In this document: in pieces, positions 542 through 60,098 of the stretch | Layout of the letters: the number at the start of each line of letters is the position of its first letter | Numbering within the stretch: position 1 is the stretch's first letter | Assembly (NCBI GenBank): GCA_021802825.1 | Contig: JAJZRG010000002.1 | Coordinates: 156,740 to 220,739, forward strand | Reading direction: 5' to 3' | DNA: 64,000 bases | Source of the DNA: Chloroflexota bacterium | Lineage (GTDB): Bacteria > Chloroflexota > Limnocylindria > Limnocylindrales > CSP1-4 | Translations under genes and position numbers: made by a program | Notes under the pieces: model-generated | Seen by the model: the letters and a program-made list of their open reading frames with translations, nothing else | What the model was told of the DNA's origin: nothing | Database searches by the model: none

Positions 542-543
542 CG

Positions 544-5040: not shown

Positions 5041-5044
5041 CGAC

Positions 5045-5051
5045 AAGGAGG
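5045..5051 (+). promoter_or_regulatory. Strong Shine-Dalgarno (AAGGAGG) for the Flp pilin gene
   Basis: AAGGAGG sits 6 nt before the ATG at 5058. It is the best ribosome-binding site in this operon, where most starts are GTG codons inside stop overlaps. A strong site at the major pilin suggests higher translation of the structural subunit. Confidence 0.7.
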
Positions 5052-5057
5052 TGCGCC

Positions 5058-5683: not shown

Positions 5684-6174
5684 TGGCAACGACACGAGGG
5701 GGCGAGCGCGGCCAGGTGGCCGTGTACGCCGTGGTGATGTTCCCGCTTCTGCTGCTCATCCTCGCCCTGGTGCTCGCGGTCGGCACGGTCGAGGGCCTGC
5801 GCTCGCGGCTGGGGGCCCAGCTCGACATGGCCGCGCTGACCGCGACCCAGGCCGTGGACCTCGCCGCCCTGGCGCGCGGCGGGCCGCCGGCGCTTGTGCC
5901 CGCCGCCGCGGAGGCGCTCGCACGCGAGTACCTCGCGGCCAACGTGGCGGCCCTGGGCGGCCAGCTGCTCGCGTCGCCCGACCAGGTCGCGAGCGGCGCG
6001 ACTGTGGCCGTGGTGAACAGCCCCGGCACCGACCCGGTCACCGGGCTCCCGGACGCGGCCCCCACGGTGAGCCTGCGGGTCCGGGTCCCGGTGCGGGTGC
6101 CGCTGCTCGGCCTCACGGGCATCGGGACTACGGTGGTGCTGGACGTCACCGGCTCGGCAGCGGCGAGGAGCTAG
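5683..6174 (+). CDS. Second TadE/TadG-like pseudopilin
   Basis: 163 aa, ATG overlapping the tadE stop by one base. A short basic leader (RGGERGQ) precedes a long hydrophobic helix (residues 13-35), after which an exported domain follows. The mature N-terminus lacks the Glu at +5 seen in Flp and TadE, so peptidase processing is uncertain. Position after TadE suggests a TadF/TadG-type minor pilin. TadG proteins of the von Willebrand type are much longer, so this is a short variant. Confidence 0.65.
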   Translation: MATTRGGERGQVAVYAVVMFPLLLLILALVLAVGTVEGLRSRLGAQLDMAALTATQAVDLAALARGGPPALVPAAAEALAREYLAANVAALGGQLLASPDQVASGATVAVVNSPGTDPVTGLPDAAPTVSLRVRVPVRVPLLGLTGIGTTVVLDVTGSAAARS

Positions 6175-6178
6175 TGCG

Positions 6179-6754
6179 ATGAACCGAGCTACGCGCATGC
6201 CCGTGCTCGCCCTCGCCGCCGTGGCCCTGGGGCTCCTCGTGGTCGGCGGGATCCTGCTCGTCGGGCGGCTCGGCGCCGCCGACGCGACGCCGGCCCCGTC
6301 GCGGACCGCCCCGCCCTCGGCAGCCGCGCCGTCTCCGCCCGCCGGGCCGTCGGCCTCGCCGGCAGACCCGCGATCGACGCCGGAGGGCGCCGTCCGGGCC
6401 TTCCTCGCGGCCTACGCGGCCGCCCGCCGCTCCGACGACCCGTCCGCGGTCTCGGAGTTCACCACGGGCACCGGATCGGACGCCTACCGCTCGGTCGCCG
6501 CGTTCCTCGCGGGGCAGCGGTCGGTCGGCAAGGCCTCGATCCTGACAGAGCAGCGGGTCGAACGCCTCGCGGCGGCCGCCTCCGGCGAGACGGCGACGGT
6601 GACGCTCGACTACACGGTGTCGGGCTACGACACCGGCCTCGCCGACGCGTCGCCGCTCCAGACGCCGCAGGCGCTCCCGACGGCGCACCTGACCGTGCGG
6701 CTGCGGCTCGTCAGCGGGCTCTGGCTCGTCGACGCCTACGAGTCGCACCCGTGA
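6179..6754 (+). CDS. Membrane-anchored exported protein of unknown function
   Basis: 191 aa, ATG four bases after the pseudopilin stop. One N-terminal transmembrane helix (about residues 9-30) is followed by a Pro/Ser/Ala-rich spacer and an outside domain of about 125 residues (from STPEGAVRAFLAAY) that ends with a beta-rich LRLVSGLWLVDAY. The overall plan, anchor plus a compact NTF2/VirB8-like alpha+beta domain, would suit an accessory T4SS or pilus protein, but I see no diagnostic motif. Its place inside the Tad operon and its overlap with the next gene argue for a role in the same machine. Confidence 0.6.
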   Translation: MNRATRMPVLALAAVALGLLVVGGILLVGRLGAADATPAPSRTAPPSAAAPSPPAGPSASPADPRSTPEGAVRAFLAAYAAARRSDDPSAVSEFTTGTGSDAYRSVAAFLAGQRSVGKASILTEQRVERLAAAASGETATVTLDYTVSGYDTGLADASPLQTPQALPTAHLTVRLRLVSGLWLVDAYESHP

Positions 6755-7962
6755 GGCGCCGCATGGCGGCCGCCCTCCTCGCCCCCGCGGCGGCGGCCCT
6801 GCTCGCCCTCGCCGCCACCGGGCCCGCCGCGGCGCTCGACTCCGGCGTCGACATCTCCGTCACCACGTGGCAGGCCGGGTCCGGGCGCTCGTACGTCGGC
6901 GTCAGGGCGGACGGCAGGTGGACGTCACCGTCGCAGCGGCGCTGCGTGGCGTACTGGACCTCGTGGGTCCACAAGTACGAGATCCTCGCCGACCCGGTCG
7001 GCGACCAGTGGTCGGTCCAGCTCATGTCGTGCGCCGGCGGGGCGAAGTACCCGCTCGACCCGATGATCGTGGTCACGACCCGGTCGCAGCCGGGGATCGG
7101 GGTGGACGCCCAGGCGTCGGGCGTGCTGAGCCTCGACCTCGGGGTCGCCGTGTCCCCCGGGACCGCCCCCGCCGGGACGACGAGGTCGGTGACCGCCAGC
7201 CTGTCCGGCGGCTGGCTGGGCTCGGTGGCGGACGACATCCGCGCGGTCATCGTGCCGGGCTCGGTCCGCGTCCGCTCCTGGTCGGTGGACTTCGGCGACG
7301 GCACCGGCGGGTCGGTGGCGGCGAGCCCGGCGGACCCGCTGCGCATGTCCACGACGCACGCGTACGGCGCGGGCAGCTTCTCGGTCACGGTGACCGCGCA
7401 CGTGGCGGGCCGCGCCTACGCGGCGTTCGTCGCGCCCGACGGCTCGCCGTACGAGACGACCGTCCCCTGGGCGGTCGACGTGACGAACGCCGCGTCCGGC
7501 GTCTCGGGCATCCCCATCGAGCACCTGCCGCCGGTCGTCACCGTCGCCGGCAGCCCGTCGGGCGCGCTCCCGGGCGGCGCGGCCGTCCCGCCCGACGCCA
7601 TGGGCCACGCCGCGGTCTTCTGGCCCCGCGGGCTGCCGTGCGCCCTCTACGTCCGCGGGACGATCGTGCGCGAGGGCGTCATGCGCTCGGGCGGCGCCGT
7701 CATCGGCGGCGGCGTCACGACCGTCACCGGGTACCGCTACACCGCGGGCGTCAATGACGCCGCCAGCCCCACGCCCACCGGCCGCTACCCCGCCTCGACG
7801 CCCATCCGCATCCAGTGGGACACGCCGCTGCCCGGGACGCAGTCGTACCCGGTCCGGGTCGTGCTGGACCTGTCGACCTTGTATGAGGACGGGACCGTCC
7901 GCACCTCGACCGTGGCGGGCGTCGTGTCGGTCGACGTCGTCTACTCAGCCGCAGCCGAATAG
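6751..7962 (+). CDS. Secreted protein with PKD-like domain
   Basis: 403 aa, GTG start overlapping the upstream stop. Residues 1-29 form a Sec signal peptide (RRR, hydrophobic core, cleavage near AAALDS). The middle part contains a PKD-like pattern (WSVDFGDGTGG near residue 180, followed by TTHAYGAGSFSVTVTA), an Ig-like fold common in surface and pilus-associated proteins. The rest has no recognised motif. It is probably exposed at the cell surface and may be an adhesive or structural part of the pilus apparatus, as it sits between pilin-like genes and cpaB. Confidence 0.7.
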   Translation: MRRRMAAALLAPAAAALLALAATGPAAALDSGVDISVTTWQAGSGRSYVGVRADGRWTSPSQRRCVAYWTSWVHKYEILADPVGDQWSVQLMSCAGGAKYPLDPMIVVTTRSQPGIGVDAQASGVLSLDLGVAVSPGTAPAGTTRSVTASLSGGWLGSVADDIRAVIVPGSVRVRSWSVDFGDGTGGSVAASPADPLRMSTTHAYGAGSFSVTVTAHVAGRAYAAFVAPDGSPYETTVPWAVDVTNAASGVSGIPIEHLPPVVTVAGSPSGALPGGAAVPPDAMGHAAVFWPRGLPCALYVRGTIVREGVMRSGGAVIGGGVTTVTGYRYTAGVNDAASPTPTGRYPASTPIRIQWDTPLPGTQSYPVRVVLDLSTLYEDGTVRTSTVAGVVSVDVVYSAAAE

Positions 7963-7973
7963 GGGGACCGCCC

Positions 7974-8663
7974 ATGCGCGTCCGTCGGACCGCCTACCTC
8001 GCCGTCTTCGTCATCGCGAGCCTCGTCGCGGCCGGCGCCTACTGGCTCGCCCAGCCGCGGACGCCCATCGTCCGCGCCACCGCCGACATCCCGGCGCTGA
8101 CGCAGGTCACCGCCGACATGGTCGGGCTCGTCCACGTCAGCCCCCTCGACGTCGCGCCCGACACCGCCCGCTCGCTCGACGCTGTCGTCGGGCGGTACGC
8201 CGCGCTGCCGATCCTCTCGGGGCAGGACGTCGACGCCCGGGCGCTCGAGGCCGTGCCGGGCTCCCAGGCGTTCGGCTTCGGCGCCCCGGTCGGCCCGGGC
8301 GAGGTCGCGTTCGCGCTCCCGGTGGCGGCCGAGCAGGCGGTCGGCGGAGCGCTGGCACCCGGCGCGAGGGTGGACGTGATCGCCGTGCCCAACGACGCCA
8401 AGACCGGCATGCCCGCCGCGAGCGGCGCCCCGGGGACCGTGTCGCTCGGGCAGGACCTCGTGATCCTCGCGCTCCGCTCGACGGAGGGCCGCCAGCTCGC
8501 CGCGGCGGACACCTCGTCGACCGGGGCGCTGCCGCCCAAGCTCGGCTCCGTGGTCGTGGCGATCCCGGCGGCGCGGCTGTCGGACTTCGCCACGGCGGCG
8601 CTCACGTCGACCTTCTACCTCGGGCTCGACCCGGGGGCAGCGGCGGCCTCGGCGGTGCCATAG
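7974..8663 (+). CDS. cpaB: CpaB/RcpC-type Flp pilus assembly protein
   Basis: 229 aa. One N-terminal transmembrane helix is followed by an SAF-like domain (IVRATADIPALTQVTADMV, about residues 33-95) and an RcpC/CpaB domain (EVAFALPVAAEQAVGGALAPG to VVVAIP). CpaB is a periplasmic or extracytoplasmic part of Tad systems. An 11-nt gap after the PKD gene keeps it in the operon. It is the last gene before the cargo island: a recombinase lies tail to tail on it, and the recombinase C-terminal frame even runs antisense into the last 60 bp of cpaB. Confidence 0.82.
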   Translation: MRVRRTAYLAVFVIASLVAAGAYWLAQPRTPIVRATADIPALTQVTADMVGLVHVSPLDVAPDTARSLDAVVGRYAALPILSGQDVDARALEAVPGSQAFGFGAPVGPGEVAFALPVAAEQAVGGALAPGARVDVIAVPNDAKTGMPAASGAPGTVSLGQDLVILALRSTEGRQLAAADTSSTGALPPKLGSVVVAIPAARLSDFATAALTSTFYLGLDPGAAAASAVP

Positions 8664-41219: not shown

Positions 41220-43424
41220 ATGACCAGAGCCCTCCTGCCCAAGCGGCGGGGTCTCGCCGGCTCACGGAGCGACGACAGCGGACCCGCCGCCGAACGAGAT
41301 GCGGCCGAGATCCCATTGGTCGCGGGCACCCGGGTCACGGGCGTCGAACTCCTCCCGATCAGCATCGAGCTGATGGCCGAGACCGAGCGCGAGGGCGCGC
41401 TCGACTCACTCGCCGAGCTGTACGACGCGGTCGGCCGGCCGTTCCAGCTGCTCTCGGTCCCGGCGGACCGCGACCCCTCCGAGCACCTGGACCTCATGGC
41501 GGCCAGCGTCGAGGGCCGGAAGGCCGCCCGAGCCCTCGACGCGTACGCCGCGCTGTATCGCGAGATCGCGGCCGCGCCGCGCCGGCGGCTGCGCCGGACG
41601 TACCTGCTCGTCGACACGGCGTCGGAGGTCGAGGCGGGGCGCGTCCGGGAGGCGCTTTCCCGGAGCGCGCTGGAGGCCGGGGTCGAGGTCCGCCCGGTCG
41701 AGGCCGACGAGGTCACGGGGCTCCTGGCGGGGATCGCCGGGTCGGACGCGCCGCTGAGGGTGGGGCCCTCGATCGTCACCGGCGACCATCTGCTGTGCGC
41801 CGTCGTCCCGTCGCCGCGCTGGCCGGCGCAGGTCGAGCCCGGCTGGCTCGCGCGCCTGCTCGCAGTCGAGGGGGTCGGCGCGGTCTCCATGCGCGTGCGG
41901 CCGCTCGGGCGCGCCGAGGCGATGGCGCTCATGACGACGCGGCTCCGCCAGGCCCGCGCCGCCGACCGGCTCGCGTCCGAGCGGGGCGAGCTCCTCGACG
42001 TCGAGCGCGAGCGGGTGGGCGAGACCGCCATGGCCGCCCGCCGCTCCGTCCAGGCCGGCCGCGGCCGCGTCTACCTCGTCGACACCGTGCTCCTGGTCGA
42101 GGCCAGCGATCCCGCCGAGCTCGCGGGACGGCTCGAGGCGGTCCGGCTCGAGGGCCGCGCGACCGGCCTGGAGCTGGACGTCGCCACCTTCCGGCAGGCT
42201 GGCGGCCTCCGCTCTGTGCTCCCGGGCCCGGCGCCGCGCCCGCTCGCCGAGCGCAACCTCGACTCGGGCTCGCTCGCGGCGAGCCTGCTCCACGTCGCGT
42301 CCGACCTGTACGAGCCGTCGGGGCACCTGTACGGACGCTCGCGCACCGGTGGCGAGCCGATCGTCCTCGACCGCTTCGCGCACGCGAGCCACAACGCGAT
42401 CGTCCTCGGCCAGACCGGAACCGGCAAGACGATGCTCACCGGGGCCGAGATGGGCCGCTGCCTGGCCCGCGGGATCCGGGTCCTCGCGGTCGACCCCCTC
42501 GGCGACTACCGCCGGCTCGCGGCCGAGCACGGCGGGGCGTACCTCGAGCTGGGGGGCCCGGGCGTCGCGCTCAACCCCTTCGCGTTCACCGGCGCCGCGG
42601 CCGACGGCGCGCTCACGGCGAAGATCGCCTCGCTCACGCGCCTGGTCGCCGCGATGGCGGGCGGGCTGACGCGCGACGAGCGCCCGCCGCTCGACCGGGC
42701 CCTGCGGGCGGTGTACGAGGACGCCGGGATCGGCCCGGACCCGGCCTCGCTCGGCCGGGAGCCGCCCGCGCTCGCCGGACTCGTCGACCGGCTCGGGGGG
42801 ACCGCGGACGGCGTGGCGCTCGCGCGCCGCCTCGAGCGCTGGGCGACGGGGTCGCTCGGGCACCTGTTCGCCGGGGGCGCGGCGCTGCCGCTCGACCGGC
42901 GGCTCGTCGTGGTCGGGCTCGCGGCGCTCTCGGACCCCGAGGTGCGCGCGGTCGCCCAGCTCGCCGCCCTGGGCATGCTCTGGGACGCGGTGCGCCGCGA
43001 CCTCGCGCCCAAGCTCGTGGTGGTCGACGAGGCCTGGAAGGTGATGCGCCAGCCCGCGGGGGCCGAGTTCGTCGAGGAGCTCGCCCGCTCCGCCCGCCAC
43101 TACGGGGCGGGCCTGCAGCTCGCGACCCAGGACATCGTGGAGTTCCTGCGGTCCGACTTCGGCGAGTCCATCGTCAAGCAGTCCGACATCCGGGTGCTCC
43201 TGGGGCAGACGCCCGAGGGCGCCGACGCGCTCGCGCGGTACTTCGACCTCACGCCCGCCGAGCGCCGCTCGCTGGTCCACGCGCGGCCGGGGGAGGGCCT
43301 CCTGTTCGTCGGGCGGAGCCACGTCGCGTTCGAGGCGGTGGTGTCCCGGCGCGAGTACGCGGCGCTCACGACGCGACCCTCGGACCTGCTCGCGATCGGG
43401 GCCGGGCGCGCGGGCGGCGGGTGA
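41220..43424 (+). CDS. VirB4-like conjugation ATPase
   Basis: 734 aa. The N-terminal 330 residues form the alpha/beta VirB4 membrane-proximal domain. The ATPase domain has GQTGTGKT (Walker A, about residue 396) and KLVVVDEAWK (Walker B, about 598), followed by LQLATQDIVEFL and the DIRVLLGQTPEGAD segment typical of VirB4/TraC. VirB4 is the universal ATPase of conjugative type IV secretion. PrgI, which normally sits beside VirB4, is instead fused to TadZ at 544-1968, about 39 kb away. GTGA overlap with the hydrolase gene. Confidence 0.9.
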   Translation: MTRALLPKRRGLAGSRSDDSGPAAERDAAEIPLVAGTRVTGVELLPISIELMAETEREGALDSLAELYDAVGRPFQLLSVPADRDPSEHLDLMAASVEGRKAARALDAYAALYREIAAAPRRRLRRTYLLVDTASEVEAGRVREALSRSALEAGVEVRPVEADEVTGLLAGIAGSDAPLRVGPSIVTGDHLLCAVVPSPRWPAQVEPGWLARLLAVEGVGAVSMRVRPLGRAEAMALMTTRLRQARAADRLASERGELLDVERERVGETAMAARRSVQAGRGRVYLVDTVLLVEASDPAELAGRLEAVRLEGRATGLELDVATFRQAGGLRSVLPGPAPRPLAERNLDSGSLAASLLHVASDLYEPSGHLYGRSRTGGEPIVLDRFAHASHNAIVLGQTGTGKTMLTGAEMGRCLARGIRVLAVDPLGDYRRLAAEHGGAYLELGGPGVALNPFAFTGAAADGALTAKIASLTRLVAAMAGGLTRDERPPLDRALRAVYEDAGIGPDPASLGREPPALAGLVDRLGGTADGVALARRLERWATGSLGHLFAGGAALPLDRRLVVVGLAALSDPEVRAVAQLAALGMLWDAVRRDLAPKLVVVDEAWKVMRQPAGAEFVEELARSARHYGAGLQLATQDIVEFLRSDFGESIVKQSDIRVLLGQTPEGADALARYFDLTPAERRSLVHARPGEGLLFVGRSHVAFEAVVSRREYAALTTRPSDLLAIGAGRAGGG

Positions 43425-44368
43425 GCGGCGGGCCGGGCCGGGCGCTGGGCTGCGGCTGCCTCGGGCTCGCGGCGGCCCTGGCGCTCGCGGTCGCCGTCGG
43501 CGGCGCGGGCGCGCTCGCGGGCGTCTGGGCCGTCGGGGCGACGCAGGCGTCGGGCGGCTCAGCCGACGTCGCCGGCATCCCGCCCGCGTACCTCGCGCTG
43601 TACCAGGGGGCCGCGGCGCGCTTCGCGATCGACTGGGAGGTGCTCGCGGCGGTCGGGCGGGTCGAGACGGACCACGGCCGCAACGCCAACGGCTGCGCGC
43701 CCAACTCGGCCGGCGCCCGGGGCCCCATGCAGTTCCTGCCCGCGACCTTCGCCCATGCCGCCAGGCTCGCGGGGCTGCTCGATCCCGACATCTGCGACCC
43801 GGCGGACGCGATCCCGGCCGCGGCCGCGTACCTCGCCTCCAACGGCGCCCCCGCTGACTGGCGGCGCGCCCTGTACCGCTACAACCCGGCCGACTGGTAC
43901 CCGCCGCTGGTGATGGGCTGGGCCGCCCGATACGGGTACGGCGCCGCGGGGGCCGTCGTCTGGCCGCTCGACGGGCGGCTCACCCAGCCCTTCGGCCCGA
44001 CCGGCCTTTCGCTCGAGCCCCCGCGCTGCTGGGCGGGCCGCTGCTACGCCCACTTCCACGACGGGATCGACCTCGCGGCGCCGCTCGGGACGCCCGTCCG
44101 CGCGATGGCCGCCGGCCGGGTGGTGCTCGCGGGGCGCGTCGCCGACGGCGCGGTGGTGGTGGAGGTCGACCACGGCGCGGGCGTGCTCACGCTGTACGGG
44201 CACCTGCAGGTGCGGCTCGCGGTCGCCGTCGGCGACCCGGTCGCGGCGGGGCAGGTGATCGGGTCGGAGGGCCTCACCGGCAACACGACCGGGCCGCACC
44301 TCCACTTCGAGGTCTGGAGCGCGGGGGTCCCGGTCGACCCGCTCTCCGTCCTCCCGGCCCGGCCGTGA
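43421..44368 (+). CDS. Bifunctional peptidoglycan hydrolase: lytic transglycosylase plus M23 peptidase
   Basis: 315 aa, GTG start overlapping virB4. An N-terminal transmembrane anchor (about 8-38) is followed by a transglycosylase domain (VGRVETDHGR with the catalytic Glu, GARGPMQFLPATF, ALYRYNPADWY) and an M23 zinc endopeptidase (HFHDGIDLAAPLGTPV supplying H and D, GPHLHFEV supplying HxH). All zinc ligands are present. T4SS of Gram-positive elements use such VirB1-like enzymes to open the cell wall. The anchor places both domains outside the membrane. Confidence 0.9.
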   Translation: MSGGPGRALGCGCLGLAAALALAVAVGGAGALAGVWAVGATQASGGSADVAGIPPAYLALYQGAAARFAIDWEVLAAVGRVETDHGRNANGCAPNSAGARGPMQFLPATFAHAARLAGLLDPDICDPADAIPAAAAYLASNGAPADWRRALYRYNPADWYPPLVMGWAARYGYGAAGAVVWPLDGRLTQPFGPTGLSLEPPRCWAGRCYAHFHDGIDLAAPLGTPVRAMAAGRVVLAGRVADGAVVVEVDHGAGVLTLYGHLQVRLAVAVGDPVAAGQVIGSEGLTGNTTGPHLHFEVWSAGVPVDPLSVLPARP

Positions 44369-46731
44369 CGCCCGCGGCCGGCCCGCTCCTCCACGCGCTC
44401 GCCGCGGCGGCGCCGCCGGCGCTCCTGCTGCTCGGGGCGCTGGTGCTGCTCGCAATCGGAGCCCGCGCCGTCCCGGCCCTCCGCCAGCGCGGGTACGACC
44501 GCGCCGCCGAGCGGGAGCGGGTGCGGCTGGTGGTCGAGCTGCCCGCGCGGGCGGAGGCCGGCCCCGACCCGGCCGCCCTCGTCCGCGCCCTCCACCCCCG
44601 CGTCCGGCGCGGGATGGGCCGCTGGGGCGTGGGCTGGCCCGCGGTCGAGCTGCGGGTCGCCTGGCGGGACGGCGCGCTCGCCTGGGAGGTCGACGCGGAC
44701 GGGCACGGCGCCGCGCTCGCCGTCACCGCGCTGCGGGCCCTGTACCCGGGCGCCGCGGTCGCGCGCGCCCCGGCCGTCGACCGCCCGGCCGCCGCGGTGG
44801 CCGTCGGGTCCCTCTCGGGGCCGCCGGGCTGGCCGCTGCGGGCGCCGGAGCCCGGGGAGCCCGCCGCAGTCGCGGCCCTGGCGGCGGCGCTCGGCCACGC
44901 GCCCGCGGGCGCCGAGGTCCGGCTGCGGTGCATCGCGCGCCCGGTGCCGCCCGGGGCATGGCGCCGCCACGCCGCGCCCGGCGATGCGTCTGCCCGGCCG
45001 TCGGTCGCGGGCATGGTCGGCGGGGCGGTCGTCGACGCGCTGCTGTTCCGCCCGACGGCGTCCCCGCCACCGTCGGGGCCGCCCCGCCAGGCCCCCGCCG
45101 AGCGCGACGCGGAGGCCCGCCGCCGCCGGGGGGTCGTGGGCTTCGACGTGGAGCTCCGGCTCGAGGTGGCGGGGATCTCGCCGGCCGCCGCCGAGGCGCT
45201 GCTCTGGCGGCTGGCCCCCTTCAGCGCCGGGCTCGACGACGGGCGCGCGTCGGTCGCCTGGGCGATCCGCCGTGGCGCGACTGCTGCGGGTCCGGCTGTC
45301 CGGCTCGCCGACTGGGAGCTCGCCGCGCTCTGGTCGCTCCCCGACGCCGCCCTCGACCGGGCGGGGTTCCCGCGGTCCCGGCCGCTCGGCGCCGCCCCGC
45401 CCGCCCTGCCCGGGGGCGCCGGCCTCGTCCTCGGCACGAGCCGCGGCGGGCCGCTCGCGCTGCCGGCCGACGCGCTCGCCCGCCACCTCGCGGTGTTCGG
45501 GTCGACGGGCTCGGGCAAGAGCACGCTGCTGCTCAACCTCGTCGGCGCGCTCGCGGGGGCCGGGGTCGGCGCGACCGTCGTCGACCCCCACGGCGACCTC
45601 ACCGCCGACATCCTCGCGCGCCTGCCGGCGGCCGCCGCGCCGCGCGTCCACGTCCTCCGGCTCGCCGACCGCGAGCGTCCGCGCGGGTTCAACTTCCTCG
45701 AGCGCCGCTCGCCCGACGAGGCGCACCTCGTCGCGTCGGAGTTCGTCGAGCTGTTCGAGGACCTGTGGCCGCGGTTCTGCGGCCCCAAGATGCAGCACTA
45801 CCTCCGCCACGCGCTGCTCACGCTGCTCTCGGGCCCGGAGCCCGGCACGATCATCGAGCTCACCCGGATCCTCACCGACGACGCCTTCCGCGCGCCGTAC
45901 GTCGCGGCGCTCGACGACCCGCTGGTCGCCGCCTTCTGGGCCAACGAGTGGCCGGGCCCCCGGGAGCGCGAGCGCGACAGCTCGATCAAGGCCGTGCTCA
46001 ACAAGCTCGGCGCGTTCGTCACCTACGCCTCGATCCGGAGCGTCGTCGGCCAGGGCGTGTCCACGGTCCGGCCGCGCGCGATCATGGACGCCGGGCACGT
46101 CCTGCTCGTCGACCTCTCGGGCGTCGGCGGCGACAACGCCAACCTGTTCGGCGCGATGCTCATCAGCCGGTACCTGATCGACGCGACCGGGCGCCAGGGG
46201 ACGCCCCGCGACGAGCGACGCCAGCACGTCCTCGTGGTCGACGAGGCGCAGCGCTTCGACACCCGCGCGATGGGGCGGATCGCGGTCGAGGGGCGCAAGT
46301 TCGGCCTGGCGCTCGCGCTCGCGTCGCAGTCGCTGGGCGGCCTCGGGGAGCGGCTGCGCGACACCGTGCTCACCAACGCCGCGTCGATCGCGCTCCTGGC
46401 GCCCGGCGCCGACGACGCGCGCGGCCTGGCGCGGCTCGTGGCCCCCGTGCCGGTCGACGAGCTCGCCTCGATGCGCCGCTTCGAGGTCCTCCTGCGGACC
46501 CCCGCGCCCGACGGCCGGCCCGCGGTGTACGGCGGCACGGTCAGCCCGCCGGGCCCCGCCGACCCCGCCGCCGCGGCCGCGATCATCGCCCGCAGCGACG
46601 CCCGGGACGCCCGCCCGGCCGACGAGGTCCGCGCCGAGGTCGCCTGGCGTTCGCGTCCGATCCCCAAGCCAGAGGCGCAGGCCCAGGCGGATGCCACCAG
46701 CGACGCGTCACGGCGCGGGCACCAGACGTGA
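44365..46731 (+). CDS. VirD4/TraD-like coupling ATPase
   Basis: 788 aa, GTG start overlapping the hydrolase gene. A transmembrane helix (about 12-33) and a long N-terminal region precede the RecA-type motor with GSTGSGKST (Walker A, about residue 379) and HVLVVDEAQRF (Walker B, about 621). VDPHGDL and the RKFGLALALASQSL segment are typical of DUF87/TraD coupling proteins that bring relaxase-bound DNA to the channel. It lacks a classic all-alpha domain that I can point to. Its position between VirB4/hydrolase and the relaxase supports the coupling role. Confidence 0.85.
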   Translation: MTPAAGPLLHALAAAAPPALLLLGALVLLAIGARAVPALRQRGYDRAAERERVRLVVELPARAEAGPDPAALVRALHPRVRRGMGRWGVGWPAVELRVAWRDGALAWEVDADGHGAALAVTALRALYPGAAVARAPAVDRPAAAVAVGSLSGPPGWPLRAPEPGEPAAVAALAAALGHAPAGAEVRLRCIARPVPPGAWRRHAAPGDASARPSVAGMVGGAVVDALLFRPTASPPPSGPPRQAPAERDAEARRRRGVVGFDVELRLEVAGISPAAAEALLWRLAPFSAGLDDGRASVAWAIRRGATAAGPAVRLADWELAALWSLPDAALDRAGFPRSRPLGAAPPALPGGAGLVLGTSRGGPLALPADALARHLAVFGSTGSGKSTLLLNLVGALAGAGVGATVVDPHGDLTADILARLPAAAAPRVHVLRLADRERPRGFNFLERRSPDEAHLVASEFVELFEDLWPRFCGPKMQHYLRHALLTLLSGPEPGTIIELTRILTDDAFRAPYVAALDDPLVAAFWANEWPGPRERERDSSIKAVLNKLGAFVTYASIRSVVGQGVSTVRPRAIMDAGHVLLVDLSGVGGDNANLFGAMLISRYLIDATGRQGTPRDERRQHVLVVDEAQRFDTRAMGRIAVEGRKFGLALALASQSLGGLGERLRDTVLTNAASIALLAPGADDARGLARLVAPVPVDELASMRRFEVLLRTPAPDGRPAVYGGTVSPPGPADPAAAAAIIARSDARDARPADEVRAEVAWRSRPIPKPEAQAQADATSDASRRGHQT

Positions 46732-46843
46732 CCCGCCCGCGGGCCCGGTGCGCCAGCCGGGGCGCCAGACGGGGCGCCGGGGCGCCCCTCCGATCGCCCC
46801 GCCGTCGTGCTCAGGACGATGGGCCCCGGCCGCGGGACCTCAC

Positions 46844-47731
46844 ATGAGCCAGCACCGTGGACAGCCGATCGCGGGCTCACGCACGCTCGGGGTCGACCTC
46901 GACGCCCTGTCGATCGCGGACAAGGCGGCCCTGCGCCTCCTCGTCCGGGCCGATGCCGCCACCGCCTCGCAGCTCGCCCGCCTCGTCTACCGCAGGGAGC
47001 GGACCGCCCAGGACCGGCTGCTCGCCCTCTGGCGGGCCGGCGCGCTCGAGCGGGCCACCGACCCGCGATCCGGCCGCGGCACCGCTGCCTACGCGTACCG
47101 GACGAGCCAGGCGACCCGCTCCCGCCTCGGCATCCGCGAGCCCCGCGCCAGCAGCCTGTACCTGCGCCACACGCTCGACATCGTCGAGACCGTCTGCGCG
47201 CTGGCCGTCCCGGACGGCCCCGACGCGCCACGCCCGGTCCAGGCTTGGCTCACCGAGCGCATGAGCGCCGACCTGCCGGGCCGCGGCATCCGACCCGACA
47301 GCGTCATCGCCCTGCAGGTGGGCGGGCGCTCATGCGTCCTGTGCATCGAGATGGACGAGGGGACCCAGCATGCCCCGGTCATCCGCGCCCGCCTCGCCGC
47401 CTATGGTCGATGGCTGCCCGCGCGCGCCGGCTGGCACCTGCTGTTCGTCATCCAGAGCGAGCAGCGTGCCCGGTGGCTCCGGCGCCTGGGGTCCTGGCAT
47501 GGCCCGGCGTCGCTTGGGGGCCGGTCGTGGGTCGTGCGGCTCGCCGACCTCAGCGCCCGTGGCCTCGACGCACCGGCGGCGCCCGTCGTCGGCCGGGAGG
47601 ACGTCGTGCCGCTGGGCGGCCTTGCCCGGGACCCTGCTCGCCGCGGCTCGACCGCACCCGTGGGATCGGAGGCCTGGAGCGAACTCCTCGGCTCGGGCGG
47701 CGGGGAGGACCTGAGCCGGTCATTGGGATGA
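46844..47731 (+). CDS. Replication-relaxase family protein
   Basis: 295 aa from ATG 46844. A winged-helix N-terminus (LSIADKAALRLLVRADAAT, then SQLARLVY and RTAQDRLLALWRAGALER) is followed by a nuclease-like domain (YLRHTLDIVETVCAL, PDSVIALQVGG, VLCIEMDEGTQ). This is the Replic_Relax plan found on actinobacterial and Chloroflexota conjugative elements, where it acts at the origin of transfer or replication. It ends the T4SS gene set. A gap of about 110 bp separates it from the coupling ATPase. Confidence 0.8.
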   Translation: MSQHRGQPIAGSRTLGVDLDALSIADKAALRLLVRADAATASQLARLVYRRERTAQDRLLALWRAGALERATDPRSGRGTAAYAYRTSQATRSRLGIREPRASSLYLRHTLDIVETVCALAVPDGPDAPRPVQAWLTERMSADLPGRGIRPDSVIALQVGGRSCVLCIEMDEGTQHAPVIRARLAAYGRWLPARAGWHLLFVIQSEQRARWLRRLGSWHGPASLGGRSWVVRLADLSARGLDAPAAPVVGREDVVPLGGLARDPARRGSTAPVGSEAWSELLGSGGGEDLSRSLG

Positions 47732-51240: not shown

Positions 51241-51963
51241 GGTTGGCCTGCGGCCGCTCGGTCGACATACACACCGGCGTACACCCCGGACTTGAACCCT
51301 GGCCCGCCGCCCCGCATGGTGCTGGTGGGCGACCGATGCCACTGGATGCGTACCTGAGCGCTTCGGCCGCCCGCCACGCCCGGCCACCGGGCGGGCAGCG
51401 GGCTCCCCGGCACGGGCTCGCGCGGCTTCGGCCGTGACCTCACCAGCGCCGGCGTCGGGACCCATCGCGGTCCCCGGCGACATGCACCTTTCCATCCCCC
51501 CATAACGCTGCCAATCGCGCGCTCCTCGATGCGTGCGACCAGGCGAGACGCGCCGCCGCCACGACGTGGGCGGAGGGCTCGGCCGGGAACGCGGCTGTCG
51601 CGAGGAGTGCTCCTCGACGGTCCGGATCTCCGGTCAGCCTCGCCCCCATCTGGGCGCGGTGCGATCGGATCCGGTCTGTCGTGCGCTCTGCGCCGACGGC
51701 TCGTCGTTCCCTGTCGGGACTTCCACCCACGGTGCTGGTGGCGGATGACATCCGCGCCGGAACGGAGGTGATGCCCCGGAGGGCGAACGAAGTGAGTCGG
51801 CGGCATGCGCGCCCGCCGGCGCTCGACCAGCTGGTCGAGTCCACCCGCGCTGGACCGGGCCGATCTCGCCGATCGCACACCCCGAGTGCAGCGTGCCGCG
51901 CCTGCACTCGCCTGTCCGGGTCCAACCCCTGCCTGCGGCTCCCGCACCCATGGAGCAACCCCG
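51241..51963. other. 720-bp region without a supported gene upstream of the Ub-like operon
   Basis: Begins at the truncated lipoprotein remnant and ends at the Ub-like gene. No frame has domain content or a convincing start. It must contain the promoter of the Ub operon, but no clear -35/-10 pair is visible. A short stretch near 51276-51300 looks like a tRNA T-arm but does not fold well. Confidence 0.4.
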
Positions 51964-52203
51964 ATGCAGACGATCCAGCCCGCCGAGACGACCAAGGTCC
52001 TCTACGGCGTCAACGAGCTCGACCTCGAGCTCGCCGGCAAGACGGTCAGCGAGGTCTGGAAGGCCCTCGAGCAGGTCTTCAACATCCCCCGCGACGCCGC
52101 GATCACCCTCAACGGCGCCCGCGTCGACGACGACACCGTCGTCCGCGCGGGTGACGAGCTCGAGTTCCAGAAGGCCGCCGGGGTGAAGGGCCGGGAGGCC
52201 TGA
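51964..52203 (+). CDS. Ubiquitin-like modifier (PRTRC protein C / Prok_Ub-like)
   Basis: 79 aa. A beta-grasp pattern is evident: strand (TTKVLYGVNELDLELA), helix (SEVWKALEQVFN), then two short strands (AAITLNGARVDD, DELEFQKAAG). The end AAGVKGREA keeps the V-x-K-G found at the tail of PRTRC C proteins, but three residues (REA) follow the last Gly (Gly76). A tail past the Gly would have to be trimmed before conjugation, and a JAB peptidase is encoded three genes on. First gene of the operon; the E2-like gene follows after 119 nt. Confidence 0.7.
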   Translation: MQTIQPAETTKVLYGVNELDLELAGKTVSEVWKALEQVFNIPRDAAITLNGARVDDDTVVRAGDELEFQKAAGVKGREA

Positions 52204-52322
52204 CCCCTCTGGCCGAGGACATCCCCGGGGTCCGCGCCGGGTCCGGTGGCGCCATGCGGCGCGCCGGGCCCGACCGGGCTCCGGGAGCCCACAGCTTCCT
52301 GGGACAAGGAGATCGAACCGCC

Positions 52323-53099
52323 ATGCAGTCGCGCACGTTTCTGCGCATCGAGGGCGATCTTGTCAGCCTGGTGACCGAGGTGACCGACCGGGAGGTGACC
52401 CTTCCCGACCTGCTCGCCGAGCTCACCAGCAGCCAGCTCGCCATGACCCCCCGACTCCCGACCGGCTGCCGCCTCTGGCTCCGGTCGGGCTCCACCGCCC
52501 GCTCCGTGTTCGTCGTGGAGCAGCCGCCCCAGCGGCGGACGATCGCGTACCACGCCAGCCACCGCTACGACGCCGAGCCCGTGAGCTACCGGCTCGCGCT
52601 CCCGTACGTCGTGTTCGTGGTCAGCACGTACGCCGACCAGATCGAGGGGCTGGCGACGTTCTTCCGGACCGAGCCGATCGCGTCCCTCGACGCCCCGCTC
52701 TACTGCTCCACCCTGCCCAACACCAGCGACGACGGGCTCGTCTGCCTGGGGTCGGTCAGGGTGAGCGGCGCCAGCGTCGGCGAGCGCGTGGACGCCCTCG
52801 TCGGCGCGTTCTGGGGGAGCCGCTTCAACTCCGACCTGCGGCGGCACCCGCTGCCGTTCACCGGCGGCTTCCGCGCGTGGGCCTCGCGCTCGCGCCGGGA
52901 CCCGCTCGCCGCGCTGTCATTGACCTACGACCCCTACTGGCGGAGCCTCCGCCAGGTGGTCGCGTCCATGGCGGGGCTCGCGGCGACGGACCTGCCGGTG
53001 GCAACCCCGGACTCCTCGGCATCCACGGAGGCCGAGGTCTTCACGCCCGAGCCGATGCCGTCCGACGAAAGAGGCGACGCCGATGCGCTCGCTTCCTGA
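52323..53099 (+). CDS. E2-like protein (Prok-E2 family D / PRTRC protein B-like)
   Basis: 258 aa from ATG 52323, with AAGGAG upstream. The N-terminal half is beta-rich (RTFLRIEGDLVSLVTEV). The middle has LPYVVFVVSTY, then DAPLYCSTLPNT and DGLVCLGS. The Cys141 in VCLG lies in the place of the catalytic Cys that follows the conserved loop of E2-like PRTRC B proteins; Cys128 is the alternative. A C-terminal region with AFWGSRFNSDLR and a Pro/Glu-rich tail closes the chain. Its place between a Ub-like gene and JAB/E1 genes is the main support for the E2 call. Confidence 0.62.
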   Translation: MQSRTFLRIEGDLVSLVTEVTDREVTLPDLLAELTSSQLAMTPRLPTGCRLWLRSGSTARSVFVVEQPPQRRTIAYHASHRYDAEPVSYRLALPYVVFVVSTYADQIEGLATFFRTEPIASLDAPLYCSTLPNTSDDGLVCLGSVRVSGASVGERVDALVGAFWGSRFNSDLRRHPLPFTGGFRAWASRSRRDPLAALSLTYDPYWRSLRQVVASMAGLAATDLPVATPDSSASTEAEVFTPEPMPSDERGDADALAS

Positions 53100-53343
53100 G
53101 GCGGTCCGCTCGACCCGGGCGGTCGCTCCCCGCTCGATCGCGTCCGCCGTGGCGCCGTTCCTCGGGGCCCCCGCCGGCCCCGCGGGCCAGCGGCGCCTCG
53201 AGGACGCGGCCATCACCCTCCTGGCCGCGGTGTACCCGCAGGCGGGCCCCGTCCTGGAGGCGCTCCTCGCGGAGCGCCTCGGGTTCGAGCGCCTGCTCCA
53301 CGCGGTCCACCGCTGCCGGGCCAGCAGGGGAGGCACCGAGTGA
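53083..53343 (+). CDS. Small unknown protein inside the Ub-like operon
   Basis: 86 aa, ATG; overlaps the end of the E2-like gene by 17 nt and the start of the JAB gene by 1-4 nt. Helical C-terminal two thirds (RRLEDAAITLLAAVYPQ, VLEALLAERLGFERLLHA). No known domain. The double overlap shows it belongs to the operon. It might be an adaptor or substrate, but nothing in its sequence says which. Confidence 0.65.
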   Translation: MRSLPEAVRSTRAVAPRSIASAVAPFLGAPAGPAGQRRLEDAAITLLAAVYPQAGPVLEALLAERLGFERLLHAVHRCRASRGGTE

Positions 53344-54182
53344 TGTTCCCGATCGTCCCGGCCGGCCCCGCCCTCGAGGGAGCGGGCCTGCCCGCCTTCG
53401 TCGTCGCCGGCGACGGGCCGTACCTGCGCAAGCGCAGCCTGCTCGGCACCAGCCAGACGAGGGTCGACCGGATCGCCGGCCTCCCCGACGGGGCGGAGAC
53501 CCTCGACTACGCGCTGCCGCCCGTCCCCGCGGACGTGATGGCCCGCGCCGTCGGCTTCTTCCGCGCCGTCCACCGGCTCTACCGGACCGAGGCGGCGGTC
53601 CTGCTGCTCTGGCGCGACGGGGGCTTCGACCTCGCCGTGCCGTCGCAGGAGGTCACCGCGGTCTCGGTCGACTTCGAGATCAGGCCCGGCGACGTCCCGC
53701 CGGGCGCGAGGGTGGTCGGCTCGGTGCACAGCCACGGCGCCTACGGCGCCTACGCGAGCGCGACCGACCAGGACGACGAGGCGGGGCTCGACGGGCTCCA
53801 CCTCGTCGTCGGCGACCTCGACCGGCGCCGGGCCGGCTATGCCGCGGCCGTCGTCGTCGACGGGGTCCGCTTCCGCCTCAAGCCCGCCCGCCTCTTCGAG
53901 CGGCCCCGACGTCTGGTCGAGCCGCCCGCGGACTGGCTGGCGAAAGTGGCCGTCGCGCCGCCGGCGCGACGGCCCAAAGCCAAGGCATCGATCTCCGCCC
54001 TCAGCCCGCGCGGGTCCCGGCCGGCCGAGGACATCGGCAGGCCGAGCCGCAAGGAGCTCGAGGCCACGATCGACCGGGCGGCCGCGATGGCGGCCGCGCT
54101 CGGCCTCCGCCTCAGCCACTGGCTCGTCCCGGTCGTCGACCTGGCCGAGCCGGAAGAGCCCGAGGAGGCGTGCGGTGCATAG
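53340..54182 (+). CDS. JAB/JAMM metallopeptidase (PRTRC protein A / Prok-JAB-like)
   Basis: 280 aa; GTG 53340 or ATG 53343. The JAMM motif is complete: Glu84 (RTEAAVLLL), then His130-Ser-His132, seven residues, Ser140, two residues, Asp143, matching E...HSHx7Sx2D. Zn-dependent JAB enzymes cleave Ub-like tails or remove them from targets. Residues 205-245 form a basic linker, and a helical C-terminus follows. It can be expected to trim REA from the Ub-like protein and/or reverse its conjugation. The gene overlaps the E1-like start by 8 nt. Confidence 0.85.
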   Translation: MMFPIVPAGPALEGAGLPAFVVAGDGPYLRKRSLLGTSQTRVDRIAGLPDGAETLDYALPPVPADVMARAVGFFRAVHRLYRTEAAVLLLWRDGGFDLAVPSQEVTAVSVDFEIRPGDVPPGARVVGSVHSHGAYGAYASATDQDDEAGLDGLHLVVGDLDRRRAGYAAAVVVDGVRFRLKPARLFERPRRLVEPPADWLAKVAVAPPARRPKAKASISALSPRGSRPAEDIGRPSRKELEATIDRAAAMAAALGLRLSHWLVPVVDLAEPEEPEEACGA

Positions 54183-54876
54183 CCGCGTCGTCCTCGTCGG
54201 CTGCGGCGGCATCGGCAGCCAGCTCGCGGGGCCGCTCGTGCGGTACCTCGCGAGCCGGCCGCACCCGCGGCCGCTCCTCGTCCTCGCGGACGGTGACCGC
54301 TTCGAGCCCTCGAACCTCGCCCGCCAGGCGTGCGCCGCCGGCGACCTCGGCACCCCCAAGGCCGAGGTCCTCGCCAGGCTCGCCCGGTCCGCGGGGCTCG
54401 CGGTCGCGGTCATCCCCGAGCACGTCACCGCGGCCAACGTCGGGCTCGTCGTCCGCGACGGGGACCTCGTCCTCCTCGCGGTCGACAACCACCCGGCGCG
54501 CGCCCTGGTCGACCGCCACGTCGCGACCCTCCGGGAAGCGACGCTCGTTTCCGGCGGCAACGACGAGACGGACGGCAACGTCCAGCTCGTCCGCCGCCGC
54601 GACGGGTACTCCGTTGACGGCCACCTCGTCGAGATCCACCCGGAGATCGGCGAGGCGGCCGCTGTTCAAGGGGCGGCGGAGCCCGGCTGCCAGGCGATGG
54701 CCGCCGAGCGCCCGCAGCTCCTGGTCACGAACCTCATGGTCGCGAGCGCGATGCTCAACGCCCTCTGGCAGGTCGTCGAGCGGGGCAGCGTCCCCTACAG
54801 CGAGGTCTACCTCGACGTCGTCGCCGGCACCGCGAGGCCGCGGCGCTGGCTCCGGCTCGAGGCGGGCATGCAGTAG
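54175..54876 (+). CDS. E1/ThiF-like adenylating enzyme (PRTRC ThiF-like)
   Basis: 233 aa, GTG start overlapping the JAB gene. VVLVGCGGIGSQL is the Rossmann nucleotide-binding loop (Gly9-Gly14); LADGDRFEPSNLARQ contributes the D-x-D and N-x-x-R-Q positions used for ATP; LLAVDNHPAR holds the Asp for magnesium. EPGCQAMA (Cys172) is in the region of the active-site Cys. It should adenylate the C-terminal Gly of the Ub-like protein. Length and layout fit the short ThiF-type E1 of PRTRC systems. Last gene of the operon; a strong hairpin follows. Confidence 0.85.
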   Translation: MHSRVVLVGCGGIGSQLAGPLVRYLASRPHPRPLLVLADGDRFEPSNLARQACAAGDLGTPKAEVLARLARSAGLAVAVIPEHVTAANVGLVVRDGDLVLLAVDNHPARALVDRHVATLREATLVSGGNDETDGNVQLVRRRDGYSVDGHLVEIHPEIGEAAAVQGAAEPGCQAMAAERPQLLVTNLMVASAMLNALWQVVERGSVPYSEVYLDVVAGTARPRRWLRLEAGMQ

Positions 54877-57428: not shown

Positions 57429-58646
57429 TTGACCGATTTCCATTCGAAAGCGCGAACCGAACTGCTCGCCAACCCGTTCCGTCCAGGCAACGGGGTCGCT
57501 CCGCCGTACCTCGCCGGTCGCGACGCCATGCTCGAGGAGTTCGAGCGCTATCTGGGCGAGAGCCATCCACTGCACGCGAACTGGACGCTGACCGGCATCC
57601 GCGGGACCGGCAAGACGGTGCTGCTCGGCGAGTTCGCGACGCGCGGGGAGCGGGCCGGCTGGCTCTGCCTCGGGCGGGAACTCGGCGATCGCCACCGCGA
57701 CGACGCACGACTGGCCGACGCGATCGCCGACGACTGCGCCGCCCTGATCCGGCGCTGCAGCTCGCTCGCGGGGCTCGGCGAGGTGATCGAGCGAGCGTGG
57801 CAGTACGTGCGTCCCCGGCGGCTCTCGGTCGGCGAGCTGGGCTACGAGCCCGCCTACGAGACCGAGTCGCGCGACGCGGCCGAGGCGATCGGGGCGGCGC
57901 TCGTGGCTCTGGGCGATGCGCTCGCGCAGACGGATGTCCCGGGCGTGCTGTTGCTGTACGACGAAGCCCACCTGCTCGGCGACGACCGACGCTTGGAGCG
58001 GTACCCGCTGTCGTCGCTCCTCGCCGGGTTCGGGCAGGCGCAGCGGACGTCGAGCCGGGTGCGCCTCGTCCTGTGCGGGCTGCCGACCCTGAGCCTCAAT
58101 CTCAAGCGGGCGCGGACGTATGCGGAGCGGATGTTCCGCCACGTGGTCATCGGTCAGCTCGAACCTCGGGATGCCTGGGACGCGCTCGGGATCCCGCTCT
58201 CGGGCAGCGGTCGTGCCTTTGAGCTCCCCCTCGTCGGCGAGATCGTGGACCGGACGGGCGGGTATCCTTACTTCCTGCAGTTCTTCGGCGGGTTCCTGTG
58301 CAGCCGGGTCGGCCGGGCGGATGTCGCCCTCACGGACTACCTCGCCCTCGAGTCGAGCCTGCTCCACGAGCTCGACCTCGCCTTCTTCGAGGACCGCTAC
58401 CTCGTCGCCGGAACGGCCGGCCAGCGGGTGCTCGACGCTATGGCCCGCGCCGGTGGGCGCCTCTCGGCACTGAGCCTGCGCCGTACCCTCGCCGACCTCC
58501 CGAACGTCGACGTCGTCGTCCGGCGGCTCGTCGACCGCGGTCTCGTCTACCGGCCGACGCGGGGCACGTATGACTTCGCGCTGCCCCTGTTCGGCTCGTA
58601 CCTGCGCCGGCGAGCCGAACTAACAGAACTAACGGGGCGGCGTTAG
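57429..58646 (+). CDS. AAA ATPase of the Orc1/STAND-like type
   Basis: 405 aa, TTG start. NPFRPGNGVAPPYLAGRDAM (a typical lead-in) is followed by LTGIRGTGKTVLL (Walker A, about residue 60), VLLLYDEAHLLGDD (Walker B, about 180) and a sensor segment (RVRLVLCGLPTL). The C-terminus has winged-helix character (RVLDAMARAGGRLSALSLRR, later RRLVDRGLVYRP). Such proteins occur on archaeal and bacterial mobile elements as replication or regulatory ATPases. It lies near the integrase and is followed at once by a small gene. Confidence 0.75.
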   Translation: MTDFHSKARTELLANPFRPGNGVAPPYLAGRDAMLEEFERYLGESHPLHANWTLTGIRGTGKTVLLGEFATRGERAGWLCLGRELGDRHRDDARLADAIADDCAALIRRCSSLAGLGEVIERAWQYVRPRRLSVGELGYEPAYETESRDAAEAIGAALVALGDALAQTDVPGVLLLYDEAHLLGDDRRLERYPLSSLLAGFGQAQRTSSRVRLVLCGLPTLSLNLKRARTYAERMFRHVVIGQLEPRDAWDALGIPLSGSGRAFELPLVGEIVDRTGGYPYFLQFFGGFLCSRVGRADVALTDYLALESSLLHELDLAFFEDRYLVAGTAGQRVLDAMARAGGRLSALSLRRTLADLPNVDVVVRRLVDRGLVYRPTRGTYDFALPLFGSYLRRRAELTELTGRR

Positions 58647-58947: not shown

Positions 58948-59883
58948 TCAGAAGCGATCAGAGGGCGCGATCCGCCGGTACGCGGCGATCGCCCGGTCCG
59001 TCCCCGACGATGCGGCGTAGCGGGCGACCATCTGGCGGCTGCGCCAGCCTGCGAGGCGCATGAGGTCCGTCTCCTGCATGCCGGCCGAGAGCATGGTGTG
59101 GGCGAAGAGGTGGCGGAAGGCGTGGGCCCCGATCCGCGGCAGCCCGGCCGCCGTGCAGCGCCGCTCGAGGATGTCGGCGATGCCGTCGCTCCGGACAGGG
59201 CCGCGGTGCCCGAGCCAGAGCTCCGGCCGCTCGGCATCGCGGTGCTGCCGACGCTCGCGCAGGTAGCGGTCGAGTGCCTGTGCGGTCCGCGCCCCGAAGG
59301 TGATCGTCCGCGGCCGCCGGCCCTTCCCAAGCACCGTGGCGGTCTTGTCGCGCAGGTCGATCCCCTCGACCGTGAGACCCGCGACCTCGCTCCGCCGGGC
59401 GCCCGAATCGAGCAGCAGCCGGATCAGGGCCGCGTCGCGGCGGTCGATGAACAGGCGGCCTTCGCAGGCCCGCAGCAGCGCCCTGACGGCCTCGTCGCCC
59501 AGCACCGGAACGGGCTCCTCGGGGACCCGCGGCGGGCGCATCCGGGCCATCGGCGAGGCGTCGGTCAGCCCCTCCTGGGCGAGCCAGTCGAAGAAGCGCT
59601 TGAGGGCGAGGTAGCGGTTGCGGGCGGTGTTGGGCCGCCAGCGCGCGATCTGGTCGGCGATGAACGCCTCGACGTGCCCGCGCGCGATCTGGGCGGGCAC
59701 GGTCGGCATGCCCCGCTCCGCGAGGAACTGGCCGAAGAGCGACACCGCCTCCTCGTAGGTGCGGCGGGTCTTCTCGGCGAGGTTCTCGGCCTCGAGGCTG
59801 AGCAGGAACGAATCGAGCTCGACCCGGAACGCGCCGGGCAGCGCGAGGCGGCGGGCGTCGGGTCGGGGGGTTCGGGTACGCAT
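58948..59883 (-). CDS. Tyrosine integrase next to tRNA-Thr
   Basis: 311 aa. A core-binding domain (about 25-110, LAEKTRRTYEEAVSLFGQFL, part quoted) precedes the catalytic domain: SGARRSEVAGL (Arg), LGKGRRPRT (Lys), HAFRH (His-x-x-Arg-His), GWRSRQMVARYA (Trp and Tyr nucleophile). All catalytic positions are present. It faces away from the tRNA gene, and its start lies 141 bp from the tRNA 3' end, the classic layout of an element inserted at a tRNA. It is the likely integrase of the whole element to its left. Confidence 0.85.
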   Translation of the reverse strand: MRTRTPRPDARRLALPGAFRVELDSFLLSLEAENLAEKTRRTYEEAVSLFGQFLAERGMPTVPAQIARGHVEAFIADQIARWRPNTARNRYLALKRFFDWLAQEGLTDASPMARMRPPRVPEEPVPVLGDEAVRALLRACEGRLFIDRRDAALIRLLLDSGARRSEVAGLTVEGIDLRDKTATVLGKGRRPRTITFGARTAQALDRYLRERRQHRDAERPELWLGHRGPVRSDGIADILERRCTAAGLPRIGAHAFRHLFAHTMLSAGMQETDLMRLAGWRSRQMVARYAASSGTDRAIAAYRRIAPSDRF

Positions 59884-60023: not shown

Positions 60024-60098
60024 TGGAGCCGACACTCGGATTTGAACCGAGGACCTGCTGTTTACGAAACAGCTGCTCTACCGCTGAGCTATGTCGGC
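60024..60098 (-). tRNA. tRNA-Thr (anticodon CGT)
   Basis: 75 nt including an encoded CCA. The 7-bp acceptor stem (GCCGACA/TGTCGGC), D-arm (GCTC/GAGC), anticodon arm (GCTGT-TTCGTAA-ACAGC, anticodon CGT) and T-arm (CTCGG-TTCGAAT-CCGAG) all pair perfectly. CGT reads ACG, threonine. The 3' end faces the integrase and is the likely attachment site. Confidence 0.95.

Follow-up and report, generated by a model that had tools for sequence, protein, structure and literature searches.

A ubiquitin-like operon in the backbone of Chloroflexota integrative elements and the putative structured RNA that precedes it

Introduction

What use does an integrative element have for ubiquitin-like protein tagging? 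Among bacterial ubiquitin-like operons, those studied best are directed against phages, and the question is raised by a five-gene operon of this kind on a 64,000-nt stretch of DNA from a Chloroflexota bacterium (assembly GCA_021802825.1, contig JAJZRG010000002.1), which was analyzed at its full length and is here called the window. The operon encodes, in this order and on the plus strand, a ubiquitin-like beta-grasp protein (Ub), an E2-like protein (E2), a small helical protein, a JAB/JAMM metalloprotease (JAB) and an E1/ThiF-like activating enzyme (E1). It belongs to the backbone of the element that carries it, and it is preceded by about 550 nt that we regard as a putative structured RNA.

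The operon and its active sites

The five genes lie where an initial annotation, made from the letters of the window, had placed them, and Pfam confirms the four families that it had named. Ub (51964..52203, 79 aa) matches ThiS (E 1.2e-5), E2 (52323..53099, 258 aa) matches Prok-E2_D (E 4e-7), JAB (53343..54182, 279 aa) matches Prok-JAB (E 7.8e-6) and E1 (54175..54876, 233 aa) matches ThiF (E 1.8e-21). All four matches exceed the gathering scores; the searches with the E2, JAB and ThiF profiles had been proposed beforehand, and Ub was found as ThiS. The small protein (53083..53343, 86 aa) between E2 and JAB had been listed as unknown, and it has no Pfam, NCBIfam or PADLOC match. Its 19 homologues have 18 invariant residues, and its AlphaFold model is all-helical at low confidence (pLDDT 56).

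Whole or in part, the operon occurs in 31 loci, with protein identities of roughly 35-80%. The overlaps of its genes, already noted for the window, are constant across loci and amount to 17 nt between E2 and the small gene (17 loci), 1 nt between the small gene and JAB (18 loci) and 8 nt between JAB and E1 (25 loci). Pairwise dN/dS is mostly below 0.5 in all five genes, as expected under purifying selection; in the most divergent pair compared, the window and a copy on contig C46 of the same genome, it rises to 0.76 in Ub and 0.66 in JAB. Because of this recurrence, the fixed overlaps and the low dN/dS values, the five-gene operon is real and not a chance arrangement.

Residue conservation was scored in full-length homologues, namely 24 of E1, 22 of E2, 25 of JAB and 20 of Ub. 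Invariant in E1 are the GxGGIGS motif and the residues D39, D41, N47, R50, Q51, K62, D104 and C172, and in E2 the cysteine C141 within DDGxVCLGSV as well as the downstream H175. The glycine motif and Cys172 of E1 and the cysteine in the VCLG loop of E2 had all been pointed out in the initial annotation, which had named the loss of Cys141 or Cys172 in homologues as an argument against its own reading; neither is lost in any of the 22 E2s and 24 E1s. The JAMM set of JAB is likewise complete and invariant, and only its numbering had to be corrected, as the gene had been begun one codon early: counted from the ATG, the residues are E83, H129, H131, S139 and D142, not E84, H130, H132, S140 and D143.

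The beta-grasp assignment of Ub also holds, whereas the proposed C-terminal VKG does not, since the protein of the window continues after AGVKG with the short tail REA. The homologues all keep A72-G73-V74-K75-G76, after which one to three residues vary freely. This combination of an invariant glycine motif and a variable short tail therefore makes Ub look like a processed precursor, which fits processing by JAB, and trimming after AGVKG is predicted from it. Such a maturation is known from the Bil system, in which BilC matures BilA (PMC11354881).

Between the Ub and E2 genes (52204..52322, plus strand), a long hairpin is found in 23/23 copies tested, in a spacer of 80-119 nt, with a mean folding z of -2.7 on the plus and -2.0 on the minus strand. 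As no terminator was found in a scan of the window, this stem-loop is read as a putative element of mRNA processing or stability. Ub might thereby be made in larger amounts than the enzymes.

A backbone module of an integrative element

The setting in a conjugative-type element, as initially proposed, is borne out by the presence of an integrase beside a tRNA gene, a VirB4-like ATPase and a coupling ATPase, by which integrative and conjugative elements are recognized. The tyrosine integrase (58948..59883, minus strand; Phage_integrase, E 2e-24) forms the right end of the element and adjoins a tRNA-Thr(cgt) gene (60024..60098, minus strand, found with ARAGORN), the likely integration site; other copies of the element abut tRNA-Pro, Gln or Arg. 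In the 76 kb on the left side, no duplicated tRNA end was found. The transfer backbone proper (41220..47731, plus strand), identified with Pfam and NCBIfam, consists of the VirB4-like ATPase (41220-43424), an M23/SLT peptidase (43421-44368), a HerA/TraD-like coupling ATPase (44365-46731) and a Replic_Relax protein (46844-47731), which is the only candidate relaxase found. A further part of the transfer backbone is a Tad/Flp-type pilus-like cluster (44..8663, plus strand) with a TadA/VirB11-type ATPase (1965-3266), two T2SSF proteins, a Flp pilin, TadE and RcpC, identified with Pfam (the NCBIfam match to TIGR03819 stays below its cut-off). It is unusual for a conjugation apparatus that Tad/Flp pilus genes stand in one run with VirB4-like and HerA/TraD-like ATPases.

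The operon is present four times in the host genome (3.9 Mb, 98 contigs). The window belongs to contig C64; the other copies, on C46, C13 and C92, share 72-78% identity with its E1 and E2. The genes of the transfer backbone are syntenic in C13 and C92 at 42-68% identity, and the Tad cluster is contiguous with VirB4 there. The window, C13 and C92 thus share the order Tad pilus, VirB4, M23/SLT peptidase, coupling ATPase, Replic_Relax, cargo, Ub operon, cargo, integrase; the contig of C46 is too short to show transfer genes, so that this backbone is seen in three of the four copies. A scan of the collection gave 27 further loci, all titled as Chloroflexi metagenome-assembled genomes save two in one Acidimicrobiia-labelled bin, which could reflect misbinning.

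Among the 107 genomes of the host family the module is patchy, as is usual for mobile DNA, and its distribution follows the transfer genes: it is present in 12/13 genomes that have the coupling ATPase and in 7/94 that lack it (Fisher p 2e-10; short high-identity E1 fragments were scored as present, and so was genome G036, in which Ub, E2, small protein and JAB lie at a contig end). Since the same kind of element is seen in the four copies and the module co-occurs with the coupling ATPase, the operon is part of the element backbone and not cargo.

A sixth gene belongs to this module. It encodes an AAA ATPase (57429..58646, plus strand; AAA_16, E 5e-6, below the gathering score), and by the gene calls of all loci the usual order is Ub-E2-small-JAB-E1-AAA ATPase, followed by variable genes and the integrase. 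The AAA ATPase cluster follows soon after E1 in 24 of the 27 loci with enough downstream sequence; in the window it is pushed away from E1 by a TIR gene (55221-56195) and another open reading frame.

Relation to known ubiquitin-like systems

The operon belongs to the class described by Iyer et al. in 2006 as row 6d and later named PRTRC, which comprises a Ub-like protein, a JAB, an E1-like and an E2-like protein and an alpha-helical protein (PMC1779556). The same four enzyme and modifier families occur here as adjacent separate genes on mobile DNA, and the core of type 6d is thus present, including a Ub with a conserved C-terminal glycine (here Gly76 and then the variable residues) and an E2 in which the cysteine is followed by a conserved histidine. 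There are also differences. The large alpha-helical protein is absent, and the only candidate for an alpha-helical partner with conserved charged residues is the 86-aa predicted-helical protein with its low-confidence model, without family match and elsewhere in the gene order, which is Ub-E2-small-JAB-E1 here and Ub-alpha-E2-JAB-E1 in the 6d relatives compared. Furthermore, an AAA ATPase follows E1, and the putative large RNA lies upstream.

The initial annotation had called the architecture PRTRC-type, of which the kinship stands and the membership does not. Homologues of PRTRC proteins A (JAB), B (E2), C (Ub) and ThiF (E1), as defined by NCBIfam TIGR03734-TIGR03737 and others and found on plasmid 1 of Aromatoleum aromaticum, are shared. 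The closest NCBIfam names, PRTRC_A, PRTRC_B and PRTRC_ThiF, all score far below their cut-offs (31.8/101.8, 23.6/131.5 and 80.1/144.8 bits). That a ParB-related partner is missing had been recognized correctly, as a TIGR03734 search of the own genome gave two sub-cut-off matches, both on other contigs, and none of ten further element proteins received a PRTRC name. The operon is, judged from these profiles, PRTRC-like but not PRTRC. The literature found on PRTRC mentions it only in passing, in papers on rhizobia, plasmids and genomes.

At the Ub C terminus, the AAGVKG of the window resembles the AAGTKG of PRTRC protein C from Aromatoleum, which has no tail; an Anabaena relative extends beyond its AGTKG, and the JAB protein of Alicyclobacillus is fused to a Ub-like stretch with GATRG at its end. 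In a small E1 tree with 16 PRTRC/6d outgroups, the window-type E1s form one clade with a long stem of 1.69 substitutions per site and a weak node support of 0.39. The nearest E1 in this tree is from an Alicyclobacillus plasmid, and the column of C172 holds a cysteine in 16/16 outgroup sequences.

With BilABCD the operon shares the four-component logic of Ub, E2, JAB and E1 and, as predicted here, the JAB-dependent maturation of the Ub C terminus. BilA consists of two Ub domains and BilD is an E1 with two adenylation domains (PMC11354881), whereas here a single-domain Ub and a minimal ThiF-type E1 are found, and the PADLOC profile of BilD gives no more than a local match to E1. The operon is therefore not a Bil system, and we regard it as a variant within the 6d type; the upstream RNA is the part without an Rfam family.

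The putative upstream RNA

Besides the AAA ATPase gene, the initial annotation had overlooked the region directly upstream of Ub (51390..51945, plus strand), a putative conserved structured noncoding RNA of about 550 nt that ends some 20 nt before the Ub start codon. The copies show 67-76% nucleotide identity to that of the window, though no gene is called there, and a coding gene was ruled out, as the indels are mostly not multiples of three (689/839) and no open reading frame is called. From an alignment of 19 loci, RNAalifold derived a structure of 164 pairs with 88.2% of the cells paired, in which 45 pairs show two-sided changes, 118 two-sided cells in total. Shuffled controls gave 57.7+-6.1 such cells (0/500 reached the observed number) and slid structures at most 50, where it has to be considered that the structure is derived from the same alignment and that related sequences inflate two-sided counts; the slid control covers the relatedness, not the derivation. 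When the 3' domain was aligned separately, 22 two-sided cells were counted, against 6.6+-2.7 after shuffling and at most 6 for slid structures. One hairpin, for example, occurs in the compensatory variants CGCGGC/GCCGUG, CGCGAUC/GAUCGCG and CGCGACC/GGUCGCG.

Two covariance models, one each for the 5' and the 3' domain, recovered copies outside their training sets, namely in the loci L031 (134 and 184 bits), L016 (3' domain, 197 bits), L130 of genome G127 (121 and 62 bits) and L023 (5' domain, 75 bits). Across the class (177 genomes) and the phylum (400 genomes), all strong matches (E <1e-14) lie in module-bearing genomes. The 6d systems retrieved from other Chloroflexota, which are more distant, gave no convincing match. 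A second match on C46 (locus L034, 13595-13737, 65 bits) covers the 5' domain only and is followed by unrelated genes; it was hence rejected as an independent RNA and is read as a remnant. A known RNA family was rejected as well, since a scan of four loci at the Rfam gathering thresholds gave tRNA only and a permissive scan of 50400-55300 gave sub-threshold matches of which none lies over the RNA. With OLE, GOLLD and ROOL it shares a length of several hundred nt and a high degree of structure; it differs from these in having no Rfam match at all and in being tied to a Ub-like operon. To our knowledge, no large RNA had been linked to a ubiquitin-like operon before.

It could be argued that the 550 nt function as DNA, with single-strand or palindromic sites as in an origin of transfer or of single-strand replication, an alternative that concerns the upstream region only and is compatible with other readings of the operon. 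The location on a conjugative-type element would suit it, a consensus scan found neither a sigma-70 promoter nor a terminator, and the strand preference of folding is only moderate, which weighs against an RNA: over 19 copies the mean z is -5.3 on the plus and -3.8 on the minus strand, so that the minus strand also beats shuffled sequence. On average the plus strand still folds more strongly, and the window sequence, compared with dinucleotide shuffles, has a z of -5.0 on the plus and -1.4 on the minus strand. The wobble pairs also favor the plus strand, with 296 G-U versus 116 A-C in the structure derived from it and 184 versus 172 in that derived from the minus strand. As the helices moreover contain long-range pairings and bulges, unlike simple palindromes, and the region stands directly 5' of Ub in every copy, we consider a DNA feature unlikely. 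As every copy of the putative RNA stops shortly before the start of Ub, it would most simply, and most likely, be a long cis-acting leader that controls the output of Ub, though it may be a separate RNA. There is also a small chance that the RNA, instead of serving as a leader, works within the Ub-like system, for example by recruiting E2, the small protein or the ATPase to a target as a scaffold or sensor, or by being tagged itself; if so, the mobile element would carry a system of ubiquitin-like modification that is guided or regulated by RNA.

Variable cargo and a probable nested insertion

Between E1 and the integrase, the C13 element (L036, ~2776-4222) carries a Multi_ubiq protein and a 392-aa ThiF, and the C92 element (L038, ~2454-4381) a JAB-ThiF-like fusion with a 206-aa partner; both operons lie near HTH/ImmA-like genes. 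They correspond to the multiubiquitin and JAB-E1 fusion operons of row 6e of Iyer et al., which share ThiF and Ub-like proteins with the operon of the window and differ from it in gene content and in being separate, variable cargo instead of a backbone module. At the edge of their contigs, C13 and C92 both end in the same tRNA-Pro(cgg) (L036 and L038, 1-1500), and the two elements may lie in tandem at one site. In the cargo slot upstream of the RNA, C46 (L034/L035) has an arsenic resistance cluster of ArsR, ArsD, ArsA and an ACR3-like protein, as judged from sequence alone. The window encodes upstream of its RNA two proteins of 306 and 360 aa (48444-50455) without Pfam or NCBIfam match. Another of its proteins (39519-39959) has a strong CAP12/Pycsar-type TIR match (E 1e-29).

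The Tad and VirB4 genes, adjacent in C13 and C92, are parted in the window by a stretch of 32.5 kb (8664-41219), which has a large serine recombinase (8990-10360) at its left edge. This stretch is probably a nested insertion; a search for direct repeats at its edges found none longer than 8 nt.

A proposed tagging cycle and its alternatives

Based on the conserved active sites and the precedents of BilABCD and the 6d systems (PMC1779556, PMC11354881), a cycle of trimming, activation, transfer and removal can be proposed. JAB would trim the Ub precursor after Gly76, E1 would adenylate the exposed glycine and carry Ub on Cys172, E2 would accept it on Cys141 and hand it to a lysine of the target, and JAB could take it off again. 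These activities of E1, E2 and JAB are predicted from their residues and relatives. For the small protein and the AAA ATPase, a role in choosing or remodelling the target is probable, though this is a guess. The operon would be expressed behind the very long RNA leader acting on Ub output, and the second stem-loop could let Ub be made in excess. The targets could be the transfer apparatus, relaxation or replication, the integrase, or restraining host factors, thus parts of the element's own cycle and not of phage defence, because the module is fixed in the backbone, co-occurs with the transfer genes and is flanked by cargo that changes on both sides. That the operon is a conserved and reversible tagging module of Chloroflexota integrative elements that serves their own cycle is, in our estimate, somewhat probable. 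Several points weigh against it: the known relatives of E1, E2 and JAB act in phage defence, two TIR proteins are among the cargo of the window, the AAA ATPase is absent after E1 in C13, C92 and locus L005, and the AlphaFold models of E2 and the small protein have low confidence. The AlphaFold2 model of E2 (mean pLDDT 55) had no Foldseek match at E <0.001 in the PDB, and the predicted fold was dropped as support.

The initial annotation had left the choice between defence and transfer control. In the first case, the element would carry the operon as a defence against phages or plasmids and tag proteins of phages or rival elements with it, as do Bil and Cap2/Cap3 of CBASS. This reading draws on the homology of E1, E2 and JAB to defence systems (PADLOC matches E1 to E1-E2 and BilD models) and on defence-like genes nearby, such as the TIR gene at 55221, that at 39519 and the multiubiquitin operon in C13. 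These neighbors are variable, however, and the same cargo slot holds arsenic resistance elsewhere, whereas the operon itself has a backbone position and a strong co-occurrence with transfer genes; Ub, E2, JAB and the small protein lack a convincing PADLOC model match. From the backbone position amid cargo we favor the element's own life cycle and regard passenger defence as rather unlikely. An addiction role has been speculated for such mobile operons by Iyer et al. (PMC1779556), in which tagging by E1 and E2 would be harmful and reversed by JAB, so that loss of the element is punished. The opposed activities within one tightly overlapping operon, the several copies per genome and the patchy distribution across relatives agree with this stabilization, but no toxic component can be identified, and JAB, probably also required for Ub maturation, would then stand on both sides, toxin and antidote, which makes the idea doubtful indeed. 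Hardly credible, finally, is a ThiS/MoaD-like sulfur transfer by Ub and E1 in place of protein conjugation: the best Pfam match of Ub is ThiS, but there is a dedicated E2 with invariant cysteine and histidine, a JAMM protease and a tail past the glycine, and neither a rhodanese domain nor cofactor biosynthesis genes nearby. On the E2 and JAB evidence this alternative was rejected.

Significance

In these Chloroflexota, a ubiquitin-like operon is a fixed backbone part of an integrative element and tied to its transfer genes across the lineage, which suggests that the tagging of proteins serves the life cycle of the element itself. The need of a mobile element for ubiquitin-like tagging thereby becomes directly testable. 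The strictly linked large RNA, absent from Rfam, is by itself a candidate for a new class of RNA.

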